Part shown: positions 38,509 to 64,000 of the stretch, one piece after another
How the letters are laid out: each line of letters begins with the position of its first letter
Position numbering within the stretch: position 1 is the stretch's first letter
NCBI RefSeq assembly: GCF_047663525.1
Contig: NC_092591.1
Span: 52,305,501 to 52,369,500, forward strand
Direction of reading: 5' to 3'
DNA length: 64,000 nt
Source of the DNA: Anas platyrhynchos
Lineage: Eukaryota > Chordata > Aves > Anseriformes > Anatidae
The notes under the pieces: model-generated
What the model saw: the letters and a program-made list of their open reading frames with translations, nothing else
The model's database searches: none
What the model was told of the DNA's origin: nothing
Program-made: the position numbers and the translations under genes

Positions 38509-39409
38509 CGGCCCGGTGTGCAGGGCGAATGTTGGTGCCTGAGGTTTAGCTGGTCTCCGGCTGTTTGCGTGAAGGACTTGGAAACCCAGAGCAAAACTGG
38601 GAAATTTAGCACTGTTTTTGGGGGGGTATTTTCAGGATTGTGTATTATGGCTTTCTAGACAAGGAGCTGAGGGTCAGGGGAGGTTTGCCCAGGCTCTGCA
38701 GCACTCGGGTGTTATCTGCTGGGATGAGAGGGAGGCAGGAAGGCTTTGGGAAGGAGGGCGCCGTGCGGCAGCGCTTGGTCTGCACGATACAGGAGAAAGA
38801 GGAAGGTAGCGAGGGATTTCTGCCAGCCGAGCTTTCCTTCTCGCATGGCAGAGATGGAAACTACTGAGCCGTGAGCGAGAAAATAGCTCAGCATTTGTTA
38901 TTGCCAATTTATGCGATGATTGAGGGCTCCGTGCCTTGTGGTGCTGGGATGCTGAAGCCACGGCTCCTTCTGTGGCCAGGGCTAAGCGGGGAGTTTATGG
39001 GGTGTGCGATGGCCCCGGGGTGCTGCGGGCTCTCGGGTGGCTTTGAGGAGCTTTTTGAGGAGCTTTTTAAGGAGCCAGCTCCGTGCTGACTCTGGTCTGT
39101 GTCTATTTGGTGTTAAACTTATGTCATCGGTGGCCCTATTCATTGCTGCCCCGCTCTTTGTGTGCTCCAGAAAGCAGGGAGGGCAGACGTCCTTGTGTAG
39201 CGGAGCCAGCGCACGGGTGCCTTTGCCTTGAAAAACCCTAGGAAAGGGGAAAAAAAAAAAAAAAAAAAATCTTAGGGAGCCACACAGAGGTGTGGAAGCA
39301 GAAAAACTGAGGAAATCCCAACTGCGATCTGAGCATAAGTTGTGAGGCAAGGCTGAAAAGCTTTGAAAAGCTTTTTTTTTTTTTTTTTTTTTTTTCTCCC
39401 CATAAAGGC
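38509..39409. other. Proximal upstream flank of ACCS, no gene recognised
   Basis: This is unique sequence between the minisatellite and the CpG island. It includes a short tandem of GAGGAGCTTTTT units at 39,044-39,075, an A-run at about 39,248-39,269 and a T-run at about 39,371-39,395. The two runs could pair as an inverted repeat about 100 bases apart. Confidence 0.5.
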
Positions 39410-39525
39410 ACTTTTCACAGAACTCGCCACCACGGCCCCGAAGCCGGTCATTTTCGCCCCCTTTTCGCCCAGCTTTCGCGGCGGGGGGCCCCCTCCCGTC
39501 CCCTCCCCTCCCCGAGCTCCGTGCC

Positions 39526-39885
39526 GAGCCGAGCCGTGCCTGGCACCGCCGGGCGGGGACCGGGCGAGGCGGGGCCGGGCGGGGCGGCTCTGGCACGGCT
39601 CGGCACGGCTCGGGCAGCCGCCAGCCTGACCCATCATAGCCCAGACAAGCCGAGCCGAGCCGTGCCGAGCAAAGGGAGGGCTGAAGGGAGGCTCTGCGCC
39701 TTCCCTCTTCTCCCGGCACGGCACGGGAGCGCGGCCAGCGGCTGGCACGGGCTAAATTATCCCGGAATAAGGGCTGCACGCATGTGCTGTCACCCCGGAT
39801 GTGAACATGCCGGCACGGCTCCCCGCTAGCTCGCTCCGCCCGGCTCTAGCGGAGGAGCCGAGCCGAGCCGAGCCGTGCCCAGCCG
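39526..39885. repeat. Dispersed GAGCC/GGCTC pentamer arrays forming inverted repeats
   Basis: GAGCCGAGCCGTGCC-like strings occur near 39,526, 39,649 and 39,856. Their reverse complement, GGCACGGCTCGGCACGGCTC, occurs near 39,591. These can pair into GC-rich stems in the promoter region. Confidence 0.75.
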
Positions 39886-39920
39886 GGACAGGGGCGCCGG
39901 CGGCCGCGCCTCGCCCGTGA

Positions 39921-39961
39921 GGGGCCGGGGCCGGGGCCGGGGCCGGGGCCGGGGGGGGGGG
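39921..39961 (+). repeat. (GGGGCC)5 repeat followed by G11
   Basis: Five perfect GGGGCC units at 39,921-39,950 run into eleven G bases at 39,951-39,961. The array lies upstream of the ACCS start in the CpG island. In the frame of the ACCS CDS, which is open upstream to an ATG at 39,875, it would encode alternating Gly-Arg. The same hexamer in the C9orf72 gene forms G-quadruplexes. Confidence 0.95.
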
Positions 39962-40141
39962 ACGCGGAGCCCCCGGGCGGCCGTGAGGGACGGGGGGCGA
40001 GGGGCTCCTGCGGCCGGGGGGGCGGCCCCGGCCCCCCCCGGAGCCCCTCGGGCCGTGGGCTCGGGGGGCCGGGTGCCGGGCTGGGCAGGCTCGGAGCCCC
40101 CCGGCCCCGCTCGCCGCCGTGTCCCGCAGCCCGCGGTCGGG

Positions 40142-40772
40142 ATGGATTTTCGGGGGAAGAAGTACGAGAGGGGCAGCAACTGGTCGGACCCCGAGGTGGT
40201 GGAGCTGCTGCAGCTGTGGGCCGACGAGGCGGTGCAGGTGGAGCTGGAGAGCTGCCTGCGCAACCAGCACGTCTTCAACCGCATCGCCGAGGTGCTGCGG
40301 GAGAAGGGCATCCACCGCACGGGCGACCAGTGCCGGGAGAAGATCAAGAAGATGAAGCTGGAGTACCGGCGGCTGAAGGACAACGCCAAGGCCCCGCGGG
40401 GTGGTCGCGGCTGGAAGTTCTTCGACGTGATGGACCGCGTGCTCAACAGCCGCCCCGCGCTGCCCTACGCCCTGGGTGGTGGCGTGATGGCCCAGCAGGT
40501 GCTGCAGGGCGCCATGGTGGAGAGCTACCACCACCGCCACCACCACCAGTTCGCCTTCGGGCACGCACAGCACCCCGAACTGATGGAGATCAAATGTGAG
40601 GAGGTGAACTCTGATGAGCACTGCTTGACCCCCGAGCCCCCAGCCGCCTTGGCTTACCAGCAGGGCTCCCCCGAAGAAGGGGAGATGGAGAGAGCCTTCT
40701 TGGAGAGGGCCCAGGACAACTCTCCCATCTCCAGGGTGGAGGTTCCCACTGAAACCAGTGTTTCACCTTCAG
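40142..40772 (+). CDS. ACCS: ACCS exon 1: Myb/SANT-like DNA-binding domain
   Basis: This exon encodes residues 1-210 plus the first base of codon 211 (phase 1 donor, AG|GTAGGG). The domain runs from W14 (SNWSDPEVVELLQLW) through the RN-hVF-RIAEVL and RTGDQCREKIKKMKLEYR motifs to W91-KFFDVMDRVL. These are the hallmarks of the Myb_DNA-bind_4 family found in MSANTD, ZSCAN29 and Harbinger-derived proteins. IKCE at 150-153 fits the SUMO-acceptor consensus. GC content at third codon positions is very high, unlike the later exons. Confidence 0.85.
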
Positions 40773-43700
40773 GTAGGGATGGCCTTTTACATTCCAGCAT
40801 AAGGTTGCTGCCTCGTTTCTCAGAAAGAGATGATTATTTTTTTTTTTTCTGGTGCGGAGATGGACACCTGGTTTGGTTTTTCTTTTTATGCGCTGGCGTT
40901 TGGATCCAATAAGGATTCCACGTCCCAAAAAGCTTTAAAGTAGAAGGCTGGTATCCGCATTAATAGTCTTGTGGCAATTCTCGAAATGTGTCTTGCTGCA
41001 GGTTAAAAAAAAACCTCTACAATTACCATGCTAGGCTAAGTACCGCGTATGAAATCCAAAGGACTGTCGCATCCGCTATAAGCTGGGATAGGCATTCATG
41101 CTGGATTTCTGCATATAATGCTGACAGTGCGTACATTATTCAAAAAAAAAAATAAAAATTGCATGCTTTTTGGTGTCAATTGAACATGACCAGGGCTGTC
41201 TGCAGTCCTCATGCTGAATTGTATCAGGAGACCCTCTTCTGCCCTTGCGACACAGCAAACCTGCAGGTGAAACTCTCCTTGCGCTCTGGTTAAATGTTTT
41301 CCCTATCTAATCTTTTAGACCTCTCAGCAGTGAAGAATGCTTGGGGATAATCATTGCCCGGCTTTCTAATTTGTTGATTAGGACTTGGAAAGAAGACGTG
41401 TTTGGAAGTCACTGGTAGAAACAGATTGTGTGTGTAAAGGAGACGAGAGTTGGGCGTGCAACAGACGTTACTTGGCTGCAGTGGAAGGTGGAGTCTGGAA
41501 ATCACAGAGATTTCCAGCCGGCCTCGGACAGGTTGATGGAAGAACACAGCGTGCTTGGGAGGAAGAGAGGTGGTGATCAGCGTGAGCCTTATTTCCGAGA
41601 TCAGGAAGAAACGCTCTGTCCTCACCCTGGTGGTTGCGTAGGCAGCCAAGGGCAGCGCTGTCGGAAGGGGTTGACTCATTAAGGTCAATTCAGAGAGCAA
41701 ATGGGGAGCCAGGCCAGGGGCTGGCAGCGAAATGGGGAGCCCAGCATGTGAAGTTTAAAAAAAAATAAATAAATACCACCAAACTAGCATACTCCTAGGA
41801 TGTACCTAACTGATTTTACTTTGTTTTTCCTTTAAAATCCTACTGTATTTAGTCTGGTGTTTTCTAGGAGGGGCAGTGGAAGGTTGCAAAATGTGTCTGC
41901 ACCATTTCACTTGCTGCACGTTTCATTTTTCTTCCTACTTTCAAATATTCGCAGGTTTCAGTGAGTCCAACATGGCCAGCTCGTCACGGATGCAGAACAT
42001 GGTTCCCCGGCCTGGCTTCTCCGCCTTGCATCGCCTGAGGAAGAAGCGGAAAGGCCAGCGGGTGAAGGACCCTCTTGACGACCTCCTGCTGAAGACCCTG
42101 ACGTCTCAGCGGGCCATGGAGGAGCGCTTCTTGCAGATGGAGGAGCGCCGATTTCAGCGAGACCTGGACGTGGAGGAGCGCCGGATGCAGCTGGAGCAGC
42201 GGCGCTTCGAGCTGGAGCGGGAGCATGAGTACCGCATGTTCAATGTCTTCGCCCAGATGCTCAGCATCCTGAAGCAGAGCCACAGCGGCTCCTCCTCTTC
42301 CATCGCGATGCCTCGGGGCTTGGACTTCAACCAGGCGCTGTCCGAAATGACCGGCCTCGGAGGAGGAGGCGACCTGCAAGAGCTGCGGGCTCGATCGCAG
42401 GCCGAGAGGAGCGTTGACATGCACGGCTTCTGCCACCCCGGTGACTTCCAGAGGAGCCCCTACCTCTCCGCTCGGGGCAACGTCGTCAACATTTTCCGGG
42501 GCTCCACCGAGGAGGGGTACAAAGCTTATCATGCTGACAAGTACGATGAAGACAAGAACCCCAATGTGAGTGCGAGTCTCCGACTGTTTTCCTGGCTCAC
42601 GCAGACGTGGTGGGCCAAGCTGTTTGTTCTGGGACGTGAAATAAAAAGTAACTATGCCCATCACTCCCACGTCAAAGGTGAACGTTGTGTTCAGCACAGG
42701 TTTGCATGCCCAGGTTTTCCTGTTGGGAGCCAGCCAGTGGCCGTAGCAGACCTTCAAAGGCGAAAGAAACCTGCAGGAACACGCTGTTCCTCTTTTTTAT
42801 CCCACCACCCCCTGAGGACAGTCACCGATTATTGCTGGTGATGGGTGGTGGATGAGATAAAACCACAGAGCAGTAGACATTTAAAACAAAAAACCTCAGA
42901 ACTTTCCCTGCCCGTTTCAGCTGTGCTGCTCGGTTGTAAGTAGCTCGTCACACACCCCCTTGTGGCACAGAGGCTGAATGTTAATAATTGGTATTGAATA
43001 AGTAACAAGTGTAGTGATTATAAATAATGATTTATCCGTGGGTTACTTTTAAAGAGATCCTGCATTCAGATGCTGAACTCCTTGAAATTTTTTAAATGTT
43101 TTGTTCTGAGCCCTGACTTGAGTCACACACAGTGTTGGGAGTTGAAAAATAGATTTTTAAGACACAAAAACACAGTCAATTTTTTGATAGAGGTGCGTTA
43201 TAAGGCAGAAACTCTCACTTCTACTAACTCTTCTACTGGCTTCTACTAATAATGTAAGTAGTAGATTTTTAAAGAAATGCCTAAAATTGGGCTTGTATTT
43301 TAGAAACATCATAAATGTACAATTGTTTAGGTTGCCTTTGGTATTTTTTTAAGTTTATTTATCCAACCTCTTCCAGTAATGAAAATGTGCTAGTAGACTT
43401 GAGCTCTTCAGCATCTAATATATAATATAAAATAAGCAGGGCCAAATCCTAGACCTGGAACTGCAGGACAGTCTCTCCACAGGGGAAAATGTAATGACTG
43501 TGTTTAGGTGGTTATTTGAAAAAATCAGCGGAGTGGAATGGTAACGACTGATAAATGAGTTATTTTAGATAAAGAAATGTATCAAAAACATTTCTTCAAG
43601 CTGCTGCAGAAGTGTAAACCTCAGTTTCCCCAGAATCATTTTAGATGTGTTTGCAGTTAGATGCATAACGATGAGTGAATTCAAGAATAAATTAAACGTG

Positions 43701-46700
43701 TCTTGTGAAGAAGTACAAATTGTTAGTAGCTATTCATTTTCACAAAGTTTATTGCCTAAGAAGCTAAGTGCCTGAGATATGTATGTAAACACTCAAACAT
43801 ACATATACATCTCCAGTTCTATATTACGTTCTGTATTTCTGTGAACTGTGTTTTGACTTCCTTGGTAAGCTCTTTGAGGGCACATCAGTGAAGTGACAGC
43901 GAAGGTGGTGGTATGTACATGTGGTTTTTTTGTGTCCCTAAATGATAAATTCTTTCTTTTTCTAGGGTATAATTAATTTTGGCACCAGTGAGAATAAACT
44001 CTGCTTTGACCTGATGTCTAAACGGGTAAGTTCTATTCCAAAAAGAAAAGCAAATGTGCTGTGTAGTTCCTCCTCAGTGTCTCTACTTTCCTAGTATTAT
44101 TGCTGCTGTTCAGGGTTCTCTAGTTAAGTTTCTCCTTGTGTATTTCTTCTGGTTGGAAGTCACTTTTGAATCCAGCTCTTTGTACACTTACTTTTGTTAT
44201 TTTAGCAGGAGGATAGGAACAGGGATATTTTTCTGTTCCTTTTCATAGTGTGTTTGTGGGAATGTATTTGGCTCATTCAAATACTTAAGGCTCAGTACTT
44301 ACATGAAAATAAGATGAATTTTATTTCCTCCCACTGACCATATTTCATTTAATACAGAAGTCTCAGAACTAGTTTTGATCTCTCTTTAATTTCGAGGGTC
44401 TTCATAGCCTGGGACAGAGGAAGTTGGCTCTGTCCATTGTAAAGTTTCACAGTTTGGACTCCTAGTTCTGAACTTCCCTAAAATTTGAGAGGGTGGCAGC
44501 AGTGAATGGGACATCTTGTGAAACCTCTTGAAATCATAGTGGATCGGCTGCTTGTCAGACACTTTGTTCAATTGCATGAAACAAATGACATGAATCAGGA
44601 ATAAACAACAAAAAAGACAAAAGAAAATGACAGACCTGTGCCTTAGAGGAATGTTTCTTGATTTCCATTAAATTTATTGCCCGGATTCAGCCTCCAAGGC
44701 GGAAAGGCTGCACTTTTCCTAGCTGAAGCTGCCTGTGGGGAGGGAAGGTGGCTGGGGTTCTGGCAGTCAGTCTCTGCACTTTGAAGCTCACTGTTACTCC
44801 CGTTCCACCAATTCCCACCCTCAAAATGTTCCTTGTTTTATTCCTGCCCGCCACACCACTGACTCGGGGATGCTACCCCACCACTCGGCCTTCCAGCTAA
44901 AAGAACAGGTAAGGCAGAGCTGCTGCCTGGCGGCTGTGCACACAAGAGGTGCCCTCTGGGCTGTGTAGGTTGTACCTCCCTTCGTTCACTGTCCTTCCCC
45001 TACACTAACATGGCGTCTGCAGCAAGTAGTACAGAGGGAGACAGCAATCAGCTGCATCTTCGTTAGCCTTATCGTGAGAATAAGCTGTAGTGTGATGAGC
45101 CATCGTGCAGGTGGCGACGAGTTGGACAGTGTTATTGTTTCCAGCTTCTTCGTCACAGCCCAGTTACAGCAGGGCTTCACTGAATGCTGTGCCAGCTGGG
45201 ATTGCAGGGAAAAATAATTTGTTGCTATTGGGGAAAATAAATACTGTTCCCACTGAATAAAGCAGCATATCAGATTTCTGTCTTCAACGTTTGACCCTTA
45301 AATTGGATAATTAATATTCTGCGGCTTGAGATCTCAGACAATCTTAATTTTGGATGGCCCATCTGATTTCCTTAGCCCTTAAAGCATTATCTTTAAGGGT
45401 TCTCCTCTTTATTATTGCATAGCCCTTTTTGGCCAAGTCTGCTGATACGTTTTATGTTGCATTCTCTAGACAAGTTTAGGAGAGAGATCTAAGGAGACAT
45501 AGTTCTGTGCTACATAGGCTTCATGAACATCTACAGATGAATAAAGGAACTTTATTCCCCAAATGGCAGGTTGTAATTCTGCATGGGATGAGGACAGTGT
45601 CTTTAAACTGTCCAGTTTCCAGAGCTTGGCACAAGTTATTAAAACACCAATACAGAATGTTGTGGTTTTGTTATTCTGTGGTAGACATTCACACTGCATG
45701 TTAAATTTCCTTCCTCTTTTGCACCATCACTTACTTGTCGTGTCCACACTCCCCTGTGTTTGTTAGTATTAACTCATAGACTGGTTGCCATCAAATGTTT
45801 GGAAGTTACATTGCACATAACATTTGTTTATCCCCTTTTTGTTCGTGTCAAATGTCCTTTTCCTTCTGCCCTAATCACTGCTGCACTTCCCCTTGCAACT
45901 TCATAGAACTGGATTTTGTGAAACCCTGATAATGACAACCTTGAAAATATTTAGATAAAAGCAGTGTGCTTATTTTATCTAAATATAAACATTAAAAAGG
46001 GCTCTAGAGCTTGCCCACAGTTCAGGTGAATCTGACTTTGAGAACAGAATAAGCTCCTAATAAAGGACAGAATACCTGCCCTAGGGAAGACATTCAAGAA
46101 GATAATTTTATTTTTCGCTTGTCTTTTGAAGGCTCCTGTTACATTCTAATGCTTACAAGGACTTATCAGAACTGTAGGTCTGAAGTAACTTGGAAGTGAA
46201 ATATAAATGAAAGGTAGAATTCATTAAAAATTAATATGTTGAAAGTTTAAAAAAAAAAAAAAAAGAAAAAAGGAAATATGTATCAGATTGTGATTTTAAA
46301 TCCTGTCTCTTTCTGACAATATAGACCTGAGCTTTCATGATGCTAGAGCTTCCATAATTGGAACTTAATTGCCAGCTGAAAGCTGCTGTTCTTACAACGT
46401 GGCAAAGCACTCCTTGGGACACTTGATTGCTTCATTTGTTCAGAAGGTCTTTGGCAGGCTTCTTTTTTTATGGGCATCACTTGTATTGCCTGTTTGGCAT
46501 CCTTTCTGTAGATCTCGGGGCAGAGAAGCTTTGGCTGCAATCATTTAGCAAAGACCTTCCATAAACTGCAGTTGTCACTGGTCAGCTTGCTGATCCTTGC
46601 TGACCGTCCCAGCTGCATTAATTCTGGTGGTCACTGGCTTTCTCAATCCAGTTTTAAGGCTGTTGAAGTTTTGTGTGTGTGTGTCTATGCAGGTGTGTGC

Positions 46701-49700
46701 CTGCACGTGCATCTATCTATTTCCATGTTTCTGGTTTCTGTGATTGTGCTTTTAATGCCTCTTTCTGTTGCTCACAGCTGACGCAGACCGATATGAACCT
46801 CATGGAGCCTCCACTGCTTCAGTATCCTGACTGGAAGGGACATATGTTGTAAGTCTTCCCATGCCTGTAATGCTTCGCTTTTTGAGTACTTGTCTGATAA
46901 ACAAAGGGGATGAGTACAAACCACTTCTGCTACACATTAGTTAAAACTTTTCTAGGTCACTTAATCATCTTTTTCTTCTCAAAAGTGTAAATTAGTCACC
47001 CAGCTAGTTAAAAACCCAGTTAAAAATCCAGTTAAAAATCCTTTTATGTAAGAGAAGATGCTGATTTTCTAAAGCCAATGCAGTTTTAAGAATACTGTAT
47101 ACATTAACAGATCAAGTAACTCCAAAAAGTTCCTTGAGACATCATGAACACTGAATCCTTCAGCTCTGTTCTCAGTTAAAGCTCTTCAGAAATGTATGCC
47201 TAGCTGTAGCTATTATCCGTGACACCTTTGCCATGTGTAACAGTCGTGTCTGTGGCACGGGCCTGAGCTATCCTGTTTTCTAGCTATCTGCATCAGACTT
47301 TACTGTGCCCTGGCTTTATTTTCCTGAGATGCGGACCTGGGGAAGCCCAGCCTCTTGGAGAATAAGCTGAATCAATATTTGCTTTTGTGTCTTTCTCAGT
47401 TTACGGGAGGAAGTGGCTCGGTTTTTGACCTATTACTGCAAGGCCCCTGCACCTCTTAAGGCAGAAAATGTGGGTAACCCACTTTCCATTGGTGTCTATT
47501 CTAATGTATTGCCATTTGTTGTCAAACAATTTCATCTTATTTTTTTTTAAACAAGTGATTTTGTAAGATGACAGCCTTTTATCATGTAAATGAGATTGAA
47601 TCATAGCCATTTTAGTAGCTTTTGATGAACACTTTAGCCAAAACACTTCAGTTCTGCTGTTCATTTGCCTTATTCTTTACTTTTGTGTGCCAACTTTTCA
47701 TGCCATTGCTTTCAATGTGGCTTTATGCTTTTATCTCCGTATTCAGCTCTGGGACCTATGGTGCTTGTGTCCCTCAAGGACAAAGAGTGCCCATTGTTTC
47801 AGCTGGGTTTAATTTTTTTTACCATTTTGCTGCTACACCTCAGGACAAAATCTGTCGTTAAGCCAAGAGTAGTTTTACTTGGCAAGAGCAGACTTTTTCA
47901 GACTTTGCAGGACTTGCTGACCTACGAGGGATGTAGGCTGGGCTTGGTGCATGCATCAGTCCTGTTTTTGCTGGGTTGTAAAGGCAGCAGGAGCAGCCAC
48001 TGCTGCTCTGGATACCGTGGTTCAAGCAGAGGCCCCTACTTCAAATACGCTGAAGTCGTGACTGATCAGTTTGCTGATCATTGCCCCTCCAAGGCAGCAG
48101 ATTCTACCTGATTCTTGGATTGAACTCAAGGGACCTTAAGTCTTCTAGACGTCAAGGGACGTTGGTCTTCTAGAAGCAGGAGTCAAAATTGCCCCGTATG
48201 AGATGACAATTTCCACTGTTGCACAAATTTGGCAGGAGGCAGGAGCTGCTGTTACCACAAAGAGAACATAATGCAAATTAGCTGGTGACAAGGATTTTGC
48301 CTTTCTAAAGCTTCAGAACTATTTTTTTTTTTCCCCCAACATAAAACCTGCTATTTCTAAATACTATGTTGCGTATTACAATCAAGAAAGGCACCTGGAC
48401 GAAGCATCATAAAACAGAGTACAGGATTAAAGTTATTTCTGGTAGAAGTGGGAATTCAGCAGGAAAATTCTGGGAACATCTGTGCTAGATGATTAGGGAG
48501 CAAATACATTTTGTTGATACTGTCAGAAATCATTTTTTGTCGTGGTATCTTTCTATGGACTGATTTATCACTAACCTGTCTCTTTCTTCTCTAGGTGATT
48601 GTTCTGAATGGTTGTGGCTCTTTGTTTTCTGCGTTAGCTACGGTCCTTTGTGATCCAGGAGGTAAGTGGATTGCCGGGAGATGTTTTCAATGTTTGTTTT
48701 TCTTGGGAAATAATAAGTTACTCAGTTTAAATATTGTTTGATAGAAGCAAGGTTCTAGAACTGCAAGGTTCTTGTTTCCTGCAGCATTGTGCTGTGAAAT
48801 TCATCACCTTCACACTCTGCAGATCTCTGGTGCTCACACTCTGTGTCTCACCCTGTCTGCCTTCACTGTTTGGGGTGTTCTGTTTAGCCCACTAAATGTG
48901 GGCTATGCTCAAGCTTACAAGAGTTACCGAGGATGGATGTACAGTGTCCTAGTTCTTGCAGAAGACTGAAGAATTAATACAGAAAGAAAGTAGAGAAAAA
49001 GGCAGTAACATTAAAATGTTTCCAGAAGGCATAAGTGTAGAAAAGCTTTCATGCTTAGCTGAAATATGCTAGAAGAGAGAGAAGGACTGGGGCCTGTGGC
49101 TGACAAATTTTGTTGTCTCGGTTCCAGAGGCTGTTCTGATTGCTACTCCCTTTTACGGTGGTATCACCCGGAGCGTCTTTCTGTATGGCAATGTGAAGCT
49201 GGTGTATGCCTATTTAGACAGTAAGGTAAGAATTGAGAGGAGGGAATACATGTATCAACCTCTGCAGTCAAAAAATAATTGGCACAGGAAAGTGTCAAGC
49301 TCTGGGGACCTCAGGACAAGGCTAGGCAGCAGCCTGTGGGTGTTTTCCCATTTATTGTTGGGAAACTGGACATGTAGTTTTCAAGAAACTTGTTTGAGGG
49401 CATAAATCTGGATTCCAGTCTTCTCCTTTTCTTGTATCTTACTTCCTATAAATGTGTAGTAATGGCTGTTGAGGGGGGAAGATGGCTATTTTGAACCTTG
49501 GAGACAGAAGTAGGTGCTGTCCCGCTAGAGATGGTCTGGGGTCGAAGAGCACATGGAGATTTGGCATTGCTGTAGTTATTAAGAATGGCCAGAAAATTCT
49601 GTGCCTGTGGCCTGTCTATGGTGAACATTTCTTTGTTTTCATTTGTTTACTCTTTCTGTAGTATAAAAAGATAAGAGTGGATGCTCTTCATTGTTGGTCA

Positions 49701-52700
49701 TTATTGTTAGGTTTTCATTTTGTTTTGGGGGACGTTTCTCAGGGGAATGGCTCAAGGAGACTCTGTTGAAATAATTTGGCCTTTTTTGTATGTTTGCGAT
49801 GTCTTTCAGATTACTGGAACAAGCACTCGGCCTTTTCAGCTTACAGTGGAAAAACTGGAAAAAGCCTTGCAGGATGCCCGTGCAGAGGTGAGTGTAGCTG
49901 AGCTTTTTATTATCGGTCTACAAGTATTCAAATTCTTTGTATTAAGTCAGTGGTATGTTTGAAATGGCTGGTCCCAGAAATGGCCTGAAGACCAAAACAA
50001 TTTCAGAACCTAGCACCCGGCTTTCTCATGGTCCTTGCAGAAAGGCTGAGATCAGGCTCCTTGCAAATCCTGTTTGCACTTACGGCAGAGTACTGAGCCT
50101 CACTTGCAAGAGGAATCCCACCATGTCATATGTAGCTGGGCACGCGCTACATATAGTAGTAGGGACTACCCAGAGTACATATAGCCTGGTAGTAGGGACT
50201 ACCCAGAGTTTCTCCTTTGGGAAGGCCAGCTGAGTTACCCCAAAAACAAATGCTGTACTCAGTAGTGCAGCAGAATCAAGTAAGACGATGAAGAATATTT
50301 GCAGGAGGGGCAAATTTAGAAGGCAAATGCAGATTGTATTTGAATATTTAGTCTGTAGGTTTTGAAATTGTCCTAAACCCAGTGTAGGTTTAGCTGCATC
50401 TTTACATCGTCACTGGCTCTGACATCTCCAGCCGCATGTGCTCTAAATGTGAGCAATTTGCATTCTCGTAGCTCAAATTCCTCTCTTTCTTGCCTCATTC
50501 ATGGGCAACCTTCAGTAATCTGTTCCTTCCTGATTGCTGATACAGCTGAGACACAATTCTCCTCCACTCTGCGAATGTGTGAGAGCATCTTTGTTATAAA
50601 TTGGCTTACCAGATGGCAGCAATCATAGCAGAACTCCCCCTTTTCAAAATCGTAGACTGATTCTATAGTGTTTTCCCCAGTTCCCTTTGCAAGTGCTGTA
50701 ATTATAAAAATATCTTAATTTGTGGCTAAAAGTTGTCTCTTACAAATCTAACCTTTGAGGTGAAATTGTCATGGTGAAAGCTGAAGGGGAGTCTTGTGTC
50801 GCATTCAGTGCTCCAGTGGAGGAACTGAAAAATCTATCCTGTGATGAATGCTCTCTTACTACTGCATTTTTTGTGTTCTGCAGGGCATCACTGTAAGGGC
50901 CTTAATTCTACTGAATCCCCAAAATCCCCTTGGGGACATCTATTCCTTGTCAGAATTACGGGATTACCTGGAATTTGCTAAAAGGTATGTCAGTTTGGAG
51001 GGCTGAGGTATCCTGAGTCAAATACGGCTTTCAGAGTCTGTCGGACTACTTGCTGTCTCCTAATTTATATGTGAATATTTTCTTAGTCGGGCATAAAGCC
51101 TGTTCTTCACACAGCATGCAGCAGGCTTAAGAGAGGAGAGAGGGCTGGCGGGGAGAAGGGAGCGTGGACCTTCCAGTCATCAGGAGTGGGAAGGAAACTT
51201 ATGTCAAGGAATAAAAGCTTTATTTTGCTGCTGTGCTGTGTGTCTTTGGTAGGAATCTGAGTTCCTTTCCTCCCAGTTTTTCTGTATGTGCAGAGAAAAA
51301 CATACAGAAATATTAATAAATAATTGAATATGTCTGCCCAGCTTCCTCACTGATGCTCTCTGAAATTTGGTCAATTCTGAGTGGGTGATGATACATCGTA
51401 CTCTAGAAGGGTGGTACCTGCAGCAGTTCATTTTCACAAGTGCATTGGAAATGACTGTTTTTTTTTTCTCATTGTATGATTGCAGTGTGTAACAATTAGC
51501 TGGATATAACTCAAAGCGATTCAGTGTACACATAACAGACCTTCCAAGCTGTCAAAAAGTGCTTCTGTGCTACAAAATTTGGTGTCCCTCTTCTTTGTAT
51601 AAAGCCAGTCTTTGCAGAATCCAGAATTTCTCTTTGCTTCTAAGCCCAGAAGCAGCATTTTTTTTTGTAACTTCCATTTTGTCCTTTTGCAGACATGAAT
51701 TGCATGTGATAGTAGATGAGATCTACATGCTGTCAGTTTTTGATGAATCAGCCACGTTTCACAGTGTCCTGGGCATGGACAGGTAAAATCAGCTCCTACT
51801 TCCCTGGCCATCTTCCAGTGACAATTCAACATGATGCCTTGCTGAGAACTTGTGACTGGAAGTTAAGTCATGAGCTAGCAAATTCTGAATCTGCATTACA
51901 TTGTTTGTTATTATTATTGTAATTTCTGAATGGCAAATGCATTTTTTTCAAGTGCAAGGAAAAATCTAGCAAGGAAAAAATGTTCATTTTCTGCTGTGAT
52001 ACCCTTTCCAGCGTGTGCTTTGGTACTTGCTTGTGCCAGTCCCCCCAGAATGGCAATGAATGTTTCATTTCTTGAGAGTGAGGCTTTTCTTTCCCGTTTA
52101 AACATTGCTGCCTCTTTCCCATGTTTCTGTTGATGCTATAAAGACCTTCTGTTGCCGTTTACTTTCTGTTTTTTCATACAGTAGTCACGGATCACAGTGT
52201 CACTACAGATTTGAGAATGGGTTTTATTAGGTATTAATTTAATGATACAAAATGTTTTGCAAAACTCATATTTTAATATATTTATTATAATTGTTTTTTC
52301 TTTCTGTTTTTCACCAGTGGTGCTATCTTTCTTTTTGTGCTCATTTGCAAAGAAATAAAATTATACTTGGCTGTTTTCTCAGCATTGCTGAGCTTGGACG
52401 TACAGCATTGCAAAGGAAGAATCTCCTTCTGCAAAGTGTTGTGGTTTGAAAGAAATAAGGAAAGAAAATTGCTTTAAATTCTTAGAAATTGAAATCAATA
52501 GAAATTGATTTGTAGCATTAAATGTACAAGCTATATACATGCAGAAAACTTGTGCGTGAAGTACAGCACTTGCTGGAAGTATCAATATATCTGAAATATC
52601 TAAAAATCTCATCTAAAATTAGTTCCTGGGAATTCCTTGCTTCCAAAGTTAGGTCAGATTGGGATTTTGCTGCCTGCCTGCTGTTCCGTGCTGCGCTGCC

Positions 52701-54902
52701 TGTCACTGTGTAATGCTGCCTCTCTGTTTTCGCAATGCTGCACTGGTGACCCAAAAGCTTCAGCACCTATGACACTAACTGCCCATCTGCATCCTTCTAC
52801 ATACAGATTGCCTGATCCACAGAGGACCCATGTGATGTGGGGAATAAGCAAGGTGAGTGCTGGTTGCCACCGTGCCGTGGCTTCCTCAGCGCTGTGGTTG
52901 GCTTGCTGTCCTCAGGTTCCTTATGCAAGAAAGAACAAGGCAATGGTTGTAGGATCTCAGCCTTCCTGTGCAATAAAGTAGTCTCTCTGTGTCTTTTGCA
53001 GGATTTTGCTGTCTCTGGGATTCGCTTTGGTACTTTGTACACAGAGAACCAAGATGTTGCTAACGCGGTGGCTTCTTTGTGCTACTTCCATGGGGTCTGT
53101 GGACCTGTCCAGCACAAGGTTGCGCAGCTGCTTAGAGACAGAGGTGAGTCAGCAGCTTGATATGGGATCCTCTGCTGGCTGTGTGTCTCGGTACCTTGTG
53201 GGATCCTTGTACTCTCCCAGGCGGTCTCTTGTGTGTGCAGTTGGCAGCCTTCCCTGTTCCTGAAGCTGCCTGTGTAAGCCATGGCTGACAGGTCCACAGC
53301 AGAGCAACATCTCTGCAGAGCTCCCCAGAAGCAGTTAGAGGAGCAGCTCTGAAGAAGCTAAGTGTGTAGAAGTAGCTAGTGTTGTGCAGCACCAGCTGAG
53401 CAGAGGCAAAAGAGTACAACCTTGTGGAAAGAGGGGAATGGAACTGGGATTTCTAGCTTTGCCCTGCTTGGAGTGCTAACAGTCCATAGCTGTAAAAGCC
53501 ATGACTGTAGGGAAATGGTGAAAAAGATGCACACAGACATGAAATTGCTAAATAGTTCTTGTCCACATTTCTGTTCTTTGAGGAAACAAAAAAGGAGTTG
53601 AAAGGTGAAATGTAAAAAGGCTTTGTGAGTATTTTAGAAACCTTAACAGATCTGAATTCTTAGGCAGTTTGTAATAATTTTTTTCTTCTTCTCCCTTTGT
53701 TTAGACTGGATCAACCAGGTGTACCTGAGGGCCAACCATGCCCGCCTAAAAGCTGCCCATACGTACGTGACAGATGAGCTGAAGACACTTGGGGTTCCTT
53801 TTCTCAACCGCAACGCAGGCTTCTTTGTCTGGATTGATTTCCGAAAGGTTGGTACGCCTAGGAAAGGTGGCTTCTCCTGGGACAAGGGCAGGCAGACGAT
53901 GCAGCTGTGTCCAGGGGAAAGTTCAATATTGTGATATGCATTTTGGTAAAACCCCATCTGATGTCTGGTGAGCAGAGGGAGGGACTGCCTTGTATTTCTG
54001 TGCGTGCTTTTCCTTTCGTCTGTCTGTGCATTTCCCTCCTTGCAGGAATCTTACTGCTCTCAAGCCACTTTCCTCCCCATTTCTTCCTTTTTATCACAAC
54101 TGCTGTACTTCAGAGGTAAAAGGTGTCTCCCCTGGCCTTTTTAGACCTCATGGGAATCACAAATTCATGAGGATCTCAGTGAGTTAGCCTATATGTGACT
54201 AACCTCTGGCCCTTCTGGTGACTCTCCCAGTACCTTAGGACAGGAACATTTGAGGAGGAGATGTTGCTCTGGAGGCGTTTTCTCGATAACAAGGTCCTCC
54301 TGTCCTGCGGCAAAGCCTTTGAGTGCAGTGAGCCTGGATGGTTCCGCATCATCTTTGCTGACAAGACCCACCGACTACAGCTGGGTGAGTGATGTCTTCC
54401 CTTCTTCCTCCCGCTGGAGTTCCTGCAGCACTGTTTCCTCCTCTCCTTAATCCTAAACTATCCTATTATTATTATTATTATCCTTGTCTTCTCCATGCTT
54501 CCTTTCCTTCCATCCTCCAAATTTTTCTGGATCCGACTGGGATTTGGAGACCCTTGTGGCTTAAACTAATCCACCAATATTTCCCCTCTTTATGCCTCTG
54601 CAGGTATGCAGAGGATCCGCAAGGTTTTGGAAGAGCGAGAGCAGGAGATCCTGGCTGAGGAAAAGGAGCAGCCTTGTCAGTCAGATCAGGATGGCAAAGC
54701 AGATAGCACAGATGAAGTCATTTTTGTATCCCGCCACCAGGAACCTACCTGTTCTGGTAGCTCCAACCTCGGTGACCTCATTGGCCTCCTGCAGCAGCAG
54801 ATGCGTTCATCTGACTGGCTCCAGAAAAACACAGCAGAGCAGTTTGCACAGGAAAAGCCAGAAATCTACGATGTGTTCAGCAAACTGGTGGGGAAACAGT
54901 AG
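40142..54902 (+). CDS. ACCS: ACCS orthologue with N-terminal Myb/SANT-like domain (15 exons, 886 aa)
   Basis: Coding exons are 40142-40772, 41955-42565, 43966-44025, 46778-46848, 47400-47469, 48595-48661, 49128-49225, 49810-49887, 50884-50984, 51693-51782, 52807-52852, 53002-53143, 53705-53847, 54231-54384 and 54604-54902. All junctions are GT-AG and the phases agree, giving 2661 nt and 886 residues. Domains: Myb/SANT-like DNA-binding domain at about 12-100; His-rich stretch at about 127-141; basic patch RKKRK at 239-243; coiled coil at about 251-318; ACCS N-terminal region at 382-414; fold-type I PLP enzyme at about 415-790; acidic/Gln-rich tail to 886. PLP-enzyme residues are present by motif: E423 (TSENKL), N576 (NPQNPLG), D604 and Y607 (VDEIY), Schiff-base K641 (GISKD), R649, and substrate-carboxylate R775 (GWFR). 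The human protein is about 500 residues, was reported to lack ACC synthase activity, and has no Myb/SANT half as I recall it. The start was chosen for its strong Kozak context (G at -3 and +4) and its position just before the domain. Confidence 0.88.
41955..42565 (+). CDS. ACCS: ACCS exon 2: NLS-like patch, coiled coil and ACCS N-terminus
   Basis: The acceptor is TTCGCAG and the donor AAT|GTGAGT (phase 1 in, phase 0 out). The exon encodes residues 211-414: a basic patch (239-243); a charged heptad-like coiled coil (MEERFLQMEERRFQRDLD and on), as in the C-terminal halves of Myb/SANT-like proteins; a Ser/Gly-rich linker; then EEGYKAYHADKYDEDKNPN, which matches the known ACCS N-terminal region. 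The Myb-family and ACCS parts therefore share one uninterrupted exon, which is strong evidence for a real fusion. The frame stays open into the intron to a stop at 42,841. Confidence 0.9.
43966..44025 (+). CDS. ACCS: ACCS exon 3
   Basis: This 20-codon exon (residues 415-434) begins GIINFGTSENKLCFDL. The Glu of TSENKL aligns with the specificity-determining Glu of plant ACC synthase (AENQ motif). Acceptor TTTTTCTAG, donor CGG|GTAAGT. Confidence 0.95.
45947..45986. repeat. Perfect 14-bp inverted repeat (hairpin) in ACCS intron 3
   Basis: ATATTTAGATAAAA at 45,947-45,960 is exactly complementary to TTTTATCTAAATAT at 45,973-45,986. The 12-base spacer GCAGTGTGCTTA can extend the stem by a further GCA/TGC pairing around a GTG loop, with a small bulge. 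Confidence 0.9.
46778..46848 (+). CDS. ACCS: ACCS exon 4
   Basis: It encodes LTQTDMNLMEPPLLQYPDWK and on (residues 435-457 plus two bases of 458). The QYPDW segment matches the ACCS family. Acceptor TTGCTCACAG, donor TT|GTAAGT. Confidence 0.95.
47006..47041. repeat. Three 12-bp tandem units in ACCS intron 4
   Basis: AGTTAAAAACCC is followed by two copies of AGTTAAAAATCC, exactly in register. Confidence 0.9.
47400..47469 (+). CDS. ACCS: ACCS exon 5
   Basis: It encodes FLREEVARFLTYYCKAPAPL and on, to KAEN (residues 458-481). The donor AAT|GTGGGT is weaker than its neighbours. It is the only site that restores frame without an extra residue relative to the ACCS family (EN-VIVLNG). Confidence 0.88.
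48126..48174. repeat. Imperfect tandem duplication in ACCS intron 5
   Basis: Two roughly 23-24 base copies share TCAAGGGAC and GTCTTCTAGA. They are separated by CG. Confidence 0.75.
48595..48661 (+). CDS. ACCS: ACCS exon 6
   Basis: It encodes VIVLNGCGSLFSALATVLCD and on (residues 482-503 plus one base). This is the start of the large PLP-binding domain (NGxxSLFSALA). Acceptor TTCTCTAG, donor G|GTAAGT. Confidence 0.95.
49128..49225 (+). CDS. ACCS: ACCS exon 7
   Basis: It encodes EAVLIATPFYGG and on, to VYAYLDSK (residues 504-536). TPFYGG corresponds to the TPYY motif of ACC synthases. Acceptor GGTTCCAG, donor AAG|GTAAGA. Confidence 0.95.
49810..49887 (+). CDS. ACCS: ACCS exon 8
   Basis: It encodes ITGTSTRPFQLTVEKLEKAL and on (residues 537-562). 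The RPFQLTVEKLE block is conserved with human ACCS. Acceptor GTCTTTCAG, donor GAG|GTGAGT. Confidence 0.95.
50148..50209. repeat. Tandem duplication in ACCS intron 8
   Basis: TACATATAG followed by TAGTAGGGACTACCCAGAGT occurs twice. The second copy carries a 5-base CCTGG insertion between the two blocks. Confidence 0.9.
50884..50984 (+). CDS. ACCS: ACCS exon 9
   Basis: It encodes residues 563-595 plus two bases. It includes LLNPQNPLGDIYS, where N576 is the cofactor-ring Asn. Acceptor GTTCTGCAG, donor AG|GTATGT. Confidence 0.95.
51693..51782 (+). CDS. ACCS: ACCS exon 10
   Basis: It encodes residues 596-625 plus two bases. It includes HVIVDEIYMLSVF, with D604 (pyridine nitrogen) and Y607 (PLP O3'). 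Acceptor CCTTTTGCAG, donor AG|GTAAAA. Confidence 0.95.
52807..52852 (+). CDS. ACCS: ACCS exon 11
   Basis: It encodes residues 626-641, LPDPQRTHVMWGISK. The last codon is the predicted Schiff-base lysine K641. Acceptor ACATACAG, donor AAG|GTGAGT. Confidence 0.95.
53002..53143 (+). CDS. ACCS: ACCS exon 12
   Basis: It encodes residues 642-688 plus one base, starting DFAVSGIRFGTLYTENQDVA. With exon 11 this gives the SKDFxxSGxRxG cofactor motif, with R649 as the phosphate-binding Arg. Acceptor CTTTTGCAG, donor G|GTGAGT. Confidence 0.95.
53705..53847 (+). CDS. ACCS: ACCS exon 13
   Basis: It encodes residues 689-736, WINQVYLRANHARLKAAHTY and on, to GFFVWIDFRK. It is closely similar to human ACCS. 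Acceptor TTGTTTAG. The donor AAG|GTTGGT is non-optimal but consistent in frame. Confidence 0.93.
54231..54384 (+). CDS. ACCS: ACCS exon 14
   Basis: It encodes residues 737-787 plus one base. It contains LLSCGKAFECSEPGWFRIIF, with R775 as the predicted alpha-carboxylate-binding Arg. Acceptor ACTCTCCCAG, donor G|GTGAGT. Confidence 0.95.
54463..54480. repeat. (ATT)n microsatellite in ACCS intron 14
   Basis: Five to six ATT units lie in the last ACCS intron. Confidence 0.9.
54604..54902 (+). CDS. ACCS: ACCS exon 15: C-terminal tail and stop
   Basis: It encodes residues 788-886 and ends in TAG. After MQRIRKVLEEREQEILAEEK the tail is acidic and Ser/Gln-rich. It contains DSTDEVIFVS, where VIFV at 826-829 is flanked by acidic residues like a SUMO-interacting motif, and a helical-looking end (LGDLIGLLQQQ...PEIYDVFSKLVG). 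The tail differs from the short human C-terminus. Confidence 0.9.
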
Positions 54903-59867: not shown

Positions 59868-60366
59868 GGGCCTGTCGCTACAAGAAGGACATGGAGGTGC
59901 TTGAGTGGGTCCAATGAAGGGCGACGAAGCTGGTGAGGGGCCTGGAGAACAAGTCCTACGAGGAGCGGCTGAAGGAGCTGGGCTTGTTCAGCCTGGAGAA
60001 GAGGAGGCTCAGGGGCGACCTTATCGCTCTCTACAGATACCTTAAAGGAGGCTGTAGTGAGGTGGGGGTTGGCCTGTTCTCCCATGTGCCCGGTGACAGG
60101 ACGAGGGGGAATGGGCTTAAGTTGCGCCAGGGGAGTTTTAGGTTAGATGTTAGGAAGAACTTCTTTACTGAAAGGGTTGTTAGGCACTGGAACAGGCTGC
60201 CCAGGGAGGTGGTGGAGTCACCATCCCTGGAAGTCTTCAAAAGACGTTTAGATGTAGAGCTTAGGGATATGGTTTAGTGGGGACTGTTAGCGTTAGGTCA
60301 GAGGTTGGACTCGATGATCTTGAGGTCTCTTCCAACCTAGAAATCCTGTGATTCTGTGATTCTGTG
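59868..60366 (+). mobile_element. Young CR1 LINE 3' end with ORF2 C-terminus
   Basis: This is a 5'-truncated CR1 of about 500 bases in forward orientation. It keeps an open frame (59,933-60,277) encoding the extreme C-terminus of the CR1 reverse-transcriptase polyprotein, with motifs such as [20 protein letters not shown] and [20 protein letters not shown]. It then has the conserved 3' UTR (GGTTGGACTCGATGATCTTGAGG) and three 8-bp tail units (ATCCTGTG ATTCTGTG ATTCTGTG at 60,343-60,366). The low divergence indicates a late insertion. The subfamily cannot be fixed here. Confidence 0.93.

Positions 60367-60893: not shown

Positions 60894-64000
<3,107 letters not shown>

Follow-up and report, generated by a model that had tools for sequence, protein, structure and literature searches.

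The ACCS locus and its exons

The plus-strand locus at 40142 (start) to 54902 (end) of the 64,000-nucleotide stretch analysed here (contig NC_092591.1, positions 52,305,501 to 52,369,500; the window) belongs to a vertebrate, probably a bird, and is its ACCS gene. It appears to encode a Myb/SANT-like domain that continues through a long helix into a full ACCS-type, pyridoxal 5'-phosphate (PLP)-dependent enzyme, and the original prediction that these parts form one gene was supported. The 15 exons, spliced from the DNA, gave 2,661 nt, comprising 886 codons and a stop codon, with no internal stops, and GT-AG borders were present at 14 of 14 introns (Table 1). The earlier count of 15 exons and 886 codons in an unbroken frame was reproduced, as were the start, the end and the junctions 40772/41955 and 42565/43966. 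No in-frame ATG was present upstream of 40142 within the open frame 39830-40912.

Further along the plus strand, the adjacent gene begins with an open reading frame (ORF) that we take, from its sequence, to be EXT2. As EXT2 is the neighbour of human ACCS according to PMC4458882, the locus was identified as ACCS.

The GC content at codon positions 1, 2 and 3 was 0.66, 0.39 and 0.88 in exon 1, 0.62, 0.40 and 0.82 in exon 2, and 0.56, 0.37 and 0.54 in exons 3-15. This difference by codon position indicates coding periodicity in all three. Exons 1 and 2 were 631 and 611 nt in length, compared with 46-154 nt for exons 3-14, and CpG-rich windows covered exon 1 and exon 2, with none across exons 3-15. 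Long exons 1-2, rich in GC at the third codon position (GC3), followed by the short exons 3-14 are what would be expected if a Myb/SANT gene of two exons had been joined to an enzyme gene with many introns. Proximity to the promoter could explain part of the GC3 difference between exons 1-2 and exons 3-15.

Table 1. Features of the ACCS locus and the adjacent gene in the window
Feature	Position	Strand	Description
CpG island, promoter region and exon 1	39251..40750	.	500-base windows with GC 0.62-0.78, CpG observed/expected (o/e) 0.66-0.88
Exon 1	40142..40772	+	Carries the start codon, the Myb/SANT-like domain and a linker; phase-1 end
Myb/SANT-like domain (PF13837)	40175..40438	+	Residues 12-99, Pfam E 1.7e-20
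Exon 2	41955..42565	+	Basic cluster, long helix, linker, first 18 residues of enzyme homology
In-frame ATG in exon 2	41972..41974	+	The context, aacATGG, is good; a putative 670-residue isoform lacking the Myb domain may begin here
Basic cluster RKKRK	42038..42052	+	Residues 239-243; candidate nuclear localisation signal
Predicted 71-residue helix	42071..42283	+	Residues 250-320; resembles the C1 paralogue's coil exon
Start of plant ACC synthase homology	42512..42565	+	Residues 397-414, within exon 2
Exon 3	43966..44025	+	Enzyme
Exon 4	46778..46848	+	Holds P451 (46826-46828), which corresponds to apple ACS Q83, and W453 (46832-46834), which corresponds to Y85
Exon 5	47400..47469	+	Splice model
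Exon 6	48595..48661	+	Splice model
Exon 7	49128..49225	+	Splice model
Exon 8	49810..49887	+	Splice model
Exon 9	50884..50984	+	Splice model
Exon 10	51693..51782	+	Splice model
Exon 11	52807..52852	+	Ends with the codon for K641, opposite the PLP-binding lysine of apple ACS (K273)
Exon 12	53002..53143	+	Splice model
Exon 13	53705..53847	+	Splice model
Exon 14	54231..54384	+	Holds R775 (apple ACS R407)
Exon 15	54604..54902	+	Stop codon; C-terminal tail with SUMO-interaction-like DEVIFV (residue 824)
Start of the next gene (taken to be EXT2)	60984..61607	+	ORF with Exostosin_GT47 match, E 5.5e-11

The enzyme, Myb/SANT-like and helical parts

The spliced protein matched Aminotran_1_2 (PF00155) over residues 417-783 (206.6 bits, E 8.4e-61), a score that, like that of the Myb/SANT-like domain, is well in excess of the Pfam cut-off. 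Solved plant 1-aminocyclopropane-1-carboxylate (ACC) synthases, enzymes of the ethylene pathway, aligned with it from residue 397-398 to 795-800, unbroken over the exon 2/3 junction. Since the plant homology begins at residue 397, 18 codons before exon 2 ends, the helix and the start of the enzyme share one exon, and an enzyme starting at exon 3 was rejected.

Comparison with the ACC synthase (ACS) of apple showed identity at 137 of 387 aligned residues. Fourteen apple ACS active-site positions were considered; one fell outside the alignment and one label mismatched its residue, leaving 12 that were counted. Eight were kept, namely E423, Y513, N576, D604, Y607, K641, R649 and R775 (apple E47, Y145, N202, D230, Y233, K273, R281 and R407, respectively), and in place of apple A46, Y85, T121 and S270 the window protein has Ser, Trp, Gly and Gly, respectively. 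The retained PLP lysine and cofactor-binding Asp, Asn, Tyr and Arg place the protein among the fold-type-I PLP enzymes, in the ACS-like branch, and it very probably would bind PLP.

In the alignments to both AtACS7 (7dlw) and apple ACS, P451 occupied the place where the plant FQDYHG motif has its Gln (apple Q83). Apple Q83 was taken as AtACS7 Q98 because N217, D245 and Y248 of AtACS7 each equal apple N202, D230 and Y233 plus 15; N576 and D604, the counterparts of N217 and D245, were both kept. Human ACCS (PHACS) was reportedly described by Koch in 2001, a study cited in PMC2748086, as an ACC synthase homologue without that activity. A Gln equivalent to Q98 occurs only in functional ACSs, according to PMC8580319, and the window protein has P451 where a genuine ACC synthase would carry it. 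According to PMC2748086, the human ACCS product is without ACC synthase activity. With a proline at the Q98 equivalent, a lyase- or aminotransferase-like activity, or PLP sensing, appears likelier than ACC synthesis from SAM. The kept PLP residues, this proline and the inactivity of the human product as an ACS together lead us to expect PLP binding and, should the enzyme be active at all, chemistry of the lyase or aminotransferase type.

Beyond the enzyme homology, exon 15 (54604-54899, plus strand) encodes a tail of ~85 residues with VIFV flanked by acidic residues; human ACCS is presumably shorter here. Small ubiquitin-like modifier (SUMO)-type patterns were identified at residues 71, 150 and 477 of the window protein, and SUMO-interaction-like patterns at 16, 480 and 824. 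As each pattern matched three times, a single motif match means little, and these motifs were set aside as evidence.

At the N-terminus, Myb_DNA-bind_4 (PF13837) scored 73.6 bits in the spliced protein against a cut-off of 27, and 77.6 bits with exon 1 alone. The AlphaFold2 model of exon 1 had block values of the predicted local distance difference test (pLDDT) of 89-97 (residues 11-80), 65 (81-90) and 92 (91-100). The domain's sequence matches to solved structures comprised only two entries, both of Arabidopsis GT-1 (2jmw, 2ebi), and a Foldseek search of the exon-1 model against the PDB gave 13 matches up to E 10, with none at 0.001 or below. The Z values against the GT-1 and Sap1 structures may reflect a common helical arrangement, and such likeness of fold does not by itself establish a function. 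Exons 1 and 2 had a single NCBIfam match, of 12.5 bits against a cut-off of 700. Scanning of viral and prokaryote contigs with the same exons yielded 5 and 41 pattern-matching stretches, respectively, and no confirmed relatives.

Nine PF13837 matches, including that of the window, were found in the genome (42 contigs, 1.26 Gb), and the window domain ranked second by score. Identity to four relatives was compared by codon position. It was 0.66 at position 2 and 0.19 at position 3 for L004, and 0.70 and 0.28 for L003; for the C1 paralogue described below (0.57 and 0.60) and for L005 (0.61 and 0.43) the values were uninformative or weaker. In two of the four relatives (L004 and L003), position 3 had diverged far beyond position 2, which fits a domain kept under protein constraint. 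The window protein would probably bind DNA.

L003, L004 and L005 lie 8-10 kb apart on the minus strand (G000:C4:51064772-51083562), and their PF13837 domains are 35-40% identical to the window domain. They are perhaps tandem genes, or a single gene with three Myb exons; in 29.7 kb of this locus (L011-L013), no coil match was found at E up to 1. Two other matches, L007 and L008, appear to us from their sequences to be MSANTD2 and MSANTD1, respectively, and the L008 match spans one TAA.

SANT domains often bind proteins. A fused protein in which the Myb/SANT domain is a protein-interaction scaffold without specific DNA binding, and the enzyme an inactive PLP-fold remnant, would agree with this, with P451 and W453 at the Q98 and Y85 equivalents, and with the lack of ACC synthase activity in the human product (PMC2748086). 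We consider this account improbable, given that the PLP lysine, Asp, Asn, both Tyr and both Arg are retained and that the Myb domain has the second-highest of the nine PF13837 scores.

PF13837 is broad and counts plant trihelix factors among its members, whereas NAIF1 and further genes derived from Harbinger fall in PF13873 (NAIF1-type Myb/SANT). The Harbinger signature that had been read into the Myb/SANT half was worded beyond the evidence, as the only sequence matches to solved structures were to GT-1 and exon 1 had no PF13873 entry among the matches listed to E 1, a range in which the filters lose most matches above 0.1. The missing PF13873 match does not exclude a Harbinger origin through other branches. 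PIF/Harbinger elements encode a DNA-binding SANT/myb/trihelix protein (PMC8616336), which makes the idea reasonable; such an origin does not follow from the PF13837 match alone. ACCS was not named in the available text of PMC10027918 or PMC8616336.

Between the two halves, a single-sequence model of the helix gave ten-residue-block pLDDT values of 93-98 mid-helix and of 66 and 83 at the ends. Support for the coiled coil of the original prediction thus extends to a predicted helix of 71 residues.

A stand-alone paralogue and the exon 1/2 join

The best PF13837 match of the genome is on contig C1, and beside it is an ORF resembling the coil of the window gene. Together the two make up a paralogue (L014:1548-3566; G000:C1, from 146525147) that has two coding exons, 324 amino acids, its own stop codon and no enzyme. 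The paralogue is comprised of a Myb exon of 562 nt, a phase-1 intron of 1,044 nt and a coil exon, including the stop, of 413 nt; the window counterpart has a Myb exon of 631 nt and a phase-1 intron of 1,182 nt. In both, a Gly codon is split at the exon 1/2 join and is followed by F-x-E. The Myb sequences were identical at 39 of 96 residues (E 7e-19), and the coils gave a separate match, in the same order, with 24 of 66 residues identical (E 1e-6; the coil E-values rest on small target sets, being 37 ORFs, the ORFs of 11 loci, or one pair). When the coil was searched against the six-frame ORFs of the 11 loci, two matches had E below 1 and both were pieces of the C1 ORF. The coil score of 79 was not equalled by any of 5,000 full shuffles or of 5,000 that kept the heptads, for segments that were picked after the match had been seen. 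The similarity flanking the exon 1/2 join was rejected as evidence, as it was reached by 2,261 of 10,000 shuffles and by 509 of 3,415 other segment pairs.

Because in the C1 paralogue, too, a Myb exon is followed by a coil exon, exons 1 and 2 are most likely one ancestral unit, and the window gene has the appearance of a fusion between a Myb/SANT-coil gene and ACCS. The suggestion of an enzyme gene carrying a captured DNA-binding module gained support from this stand-alone, enzyme-free, two-exon relative of exons 1-2. The module may be a gain of this lineage or a loss in mammals. An AATAAA was present just ahead of the stop codon of the paralogue and a second ~40 bases past it. Separately, an IKVE SUMO-type motif was observed ahead of its intron.

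The exact splice points of the exon 1/2 join are probable, and two observations weigh against them. Intron 1 ranked last of the 14 introns at both ends, with a donor score of 5.1 (6.6-12.9 in the rest) and an acceptor score of 6.2 (6.9-15.3 in the rest), on a matrix that was derived from those other 13 and hence favours them. Several GT and AG sites near intron 1 also outscored the proposed pair. The frame into the enzyme was open for 6 of 27 donor-acceptor pairs (six donors, five acceptors), the proposed pair included. The higher-scoring donor 40596 or acceptor 41867 left the frame open with the proposed partner, and their combination introduced one stop.

The weak splice sites of intron 1 would also suit a main product of 670 residues, containing the coil and the enzyme, made from a CpG promoter in exon 2 and the ATG at 41972, with exon 1 present only in a minor isoform. 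Exon 2 has a CpG o/e of 0.73-0.83, and the context of this ATG is favourable. However, the stronger CpG island and a start of its own belong to exon 1, the C1 paralogue has the Myb and coil exons together in the same order, and the GC3 of 0.82 in exon 2 could account for its CpG content without a promoter. We consider it improbable that such a protein is the main product.

Polyadenylation signals could point to two adjoining genes, with a Myb/SANT gene polyadenylated in intron 1 or 2, ACCS beginning downstream and the 886-codon join merely a possible splice. AATAAA was present at 41151, 41764 and 41768 in intron 1 and at 42640 in intron 2. However, one exon holds both the coil and the opening 18 residues of the homology, and an enzyme without exon 2 would lack some of its conserved sequence. 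If a transcript ended just past 42640, it would be without a stop codon, as the frame is open to a stop ending at 42841, and the Myb exon precedes the coil exon in the C1 paralogue. Two separate genes are thus very unlikely, and the fused product is, on the evidence of the sequence, highly likely to be made.

Elsewhere in the window, no gene was recognised upstream (1-38000), where two ORFs tried against Pfam had no matches, and Rfam gave no matches at gathering score over the whole window. A plus-strand ORF at 59918-60274, for which Pfam gave nothing at E up to 0.1, resembles the C-terminal end of a CR1-type long interspersed nuclear element; this likeness and the size of the genome suggest a bird.

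Proposed product and comparison with known systems

The best overall explanation is probably a fused, nuclear, DNA-bound PLP protein that arose from the joining of a Myb/SANT-coil gene with ACCS. A complete gene of one Myb exon and one coil exon would have been joined to the PLP-dependent enzyme inside exon 2, and the main product would be a single protein of 886 residues. Its N-terminal trihelix-like Myb/SANT domain would bind DNA, and the basic cluster probably directs the protein to the nucleus. The long helix may aid dimerisation, the fold-type-I PLP enzyme would also form dimers, and the dimer would be tethered to DNA through two Myb/SANT domains. The PLP domain could then act locally, with a C-beta-S-lyase- or aminotransferase-like activity and not ACC synthesis. 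Alternatively, it could sense PLP or an amino acid and so alter DNA binding, in the manner of bacterial MocR/GabR regulators. A regulatory or local catalytic role of either kind is a tentative proposal, with an even chance at best. A vertebrate PLP-dependent transcription factor, as an independent animal counterpart of MocR/GabR that would read vitamin B6 or sulfur-amino-acid status, or perform persulfide or pyruvate chemistry, on DNA, and whose DNA-binding half was lost by mammals, is a bolder reading that we consider rather unlikely to hold.

Searches of one open-licence library listed no paper on an ACCS-Myb/SANT fusion, and automatic protein-database annotations may already list this architecture. 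Captured Myb/SANT modules are known; the metabolic enzyme as partner is the new element here, and would join the list of partners of such domains. If read as one protein, a metabolic enzyme, or a sensor derived from one, may sit on DNA. If ACCS relatives carry the DNA-binding module, the orphan human enzyme would gain a concrete hypothesis, that of a nuclear DNA-bound PLP protein. The stand-alone C1 paralogue in the same genome shows a possible starting point of such a capture.

The C1 paralogue was the nearest architecture found to exons 1-2, being alike in the Myb/SANT domain, phase-1 intron and coil; however, it ends after the coil. The plant ACC synthases (1iax, 1m4n, 7dlw) are homologous over residues 397-398 to 795-800 and have the PLP residues in common with the window protein, but carry Gln98 (AtACS7) and Tyr85 (apple) where it has Pro and Trp, and the window protein adds an N-terminal Myb/SANT module. 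Human ACCS is known as a protein of ~500 residues with the enzyme part only; the window gene has ~395 further residues, made up of the Myb/SANT domain, helix and linker. Human ACCS shares with the window gene the neighbour EXT2 (PMC4458882) and the enzyme family. The Arabidopsis GT-1 trihelix domain (2jmw, 2ebi) and the S. pombe Sap1 DNA-binding domain (5jdk) are without an enzyme, unlike the window gene. Vertebrate genes such as TSNARE1, in which the Myb-like domain derives from Harbinger, similarly have a captured domain of this kind on an unrelated partner, but that partner differs from the enzyme seen here.

Bacterial MocR/GabR regulators have a DNA-binding domain, a linker and an aminotransferase-fold PLP domain, as does the window protein, in which PF00155 at residues 417-783 provides the C-terminal aminotransferase-fold part. 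No GntR domain was among the Pfam matches at E up to 0.1, which were only PF00155, PF13837 and a below-cut-off PF01212, and the window protein is thus not a member of the MocR/GabR family. The MocR/GabR DNA-binding domain is a GntR-type winged helix, in contrast to the Myb/SANT domain here, and the resemblance is one of analogy, not kinship.
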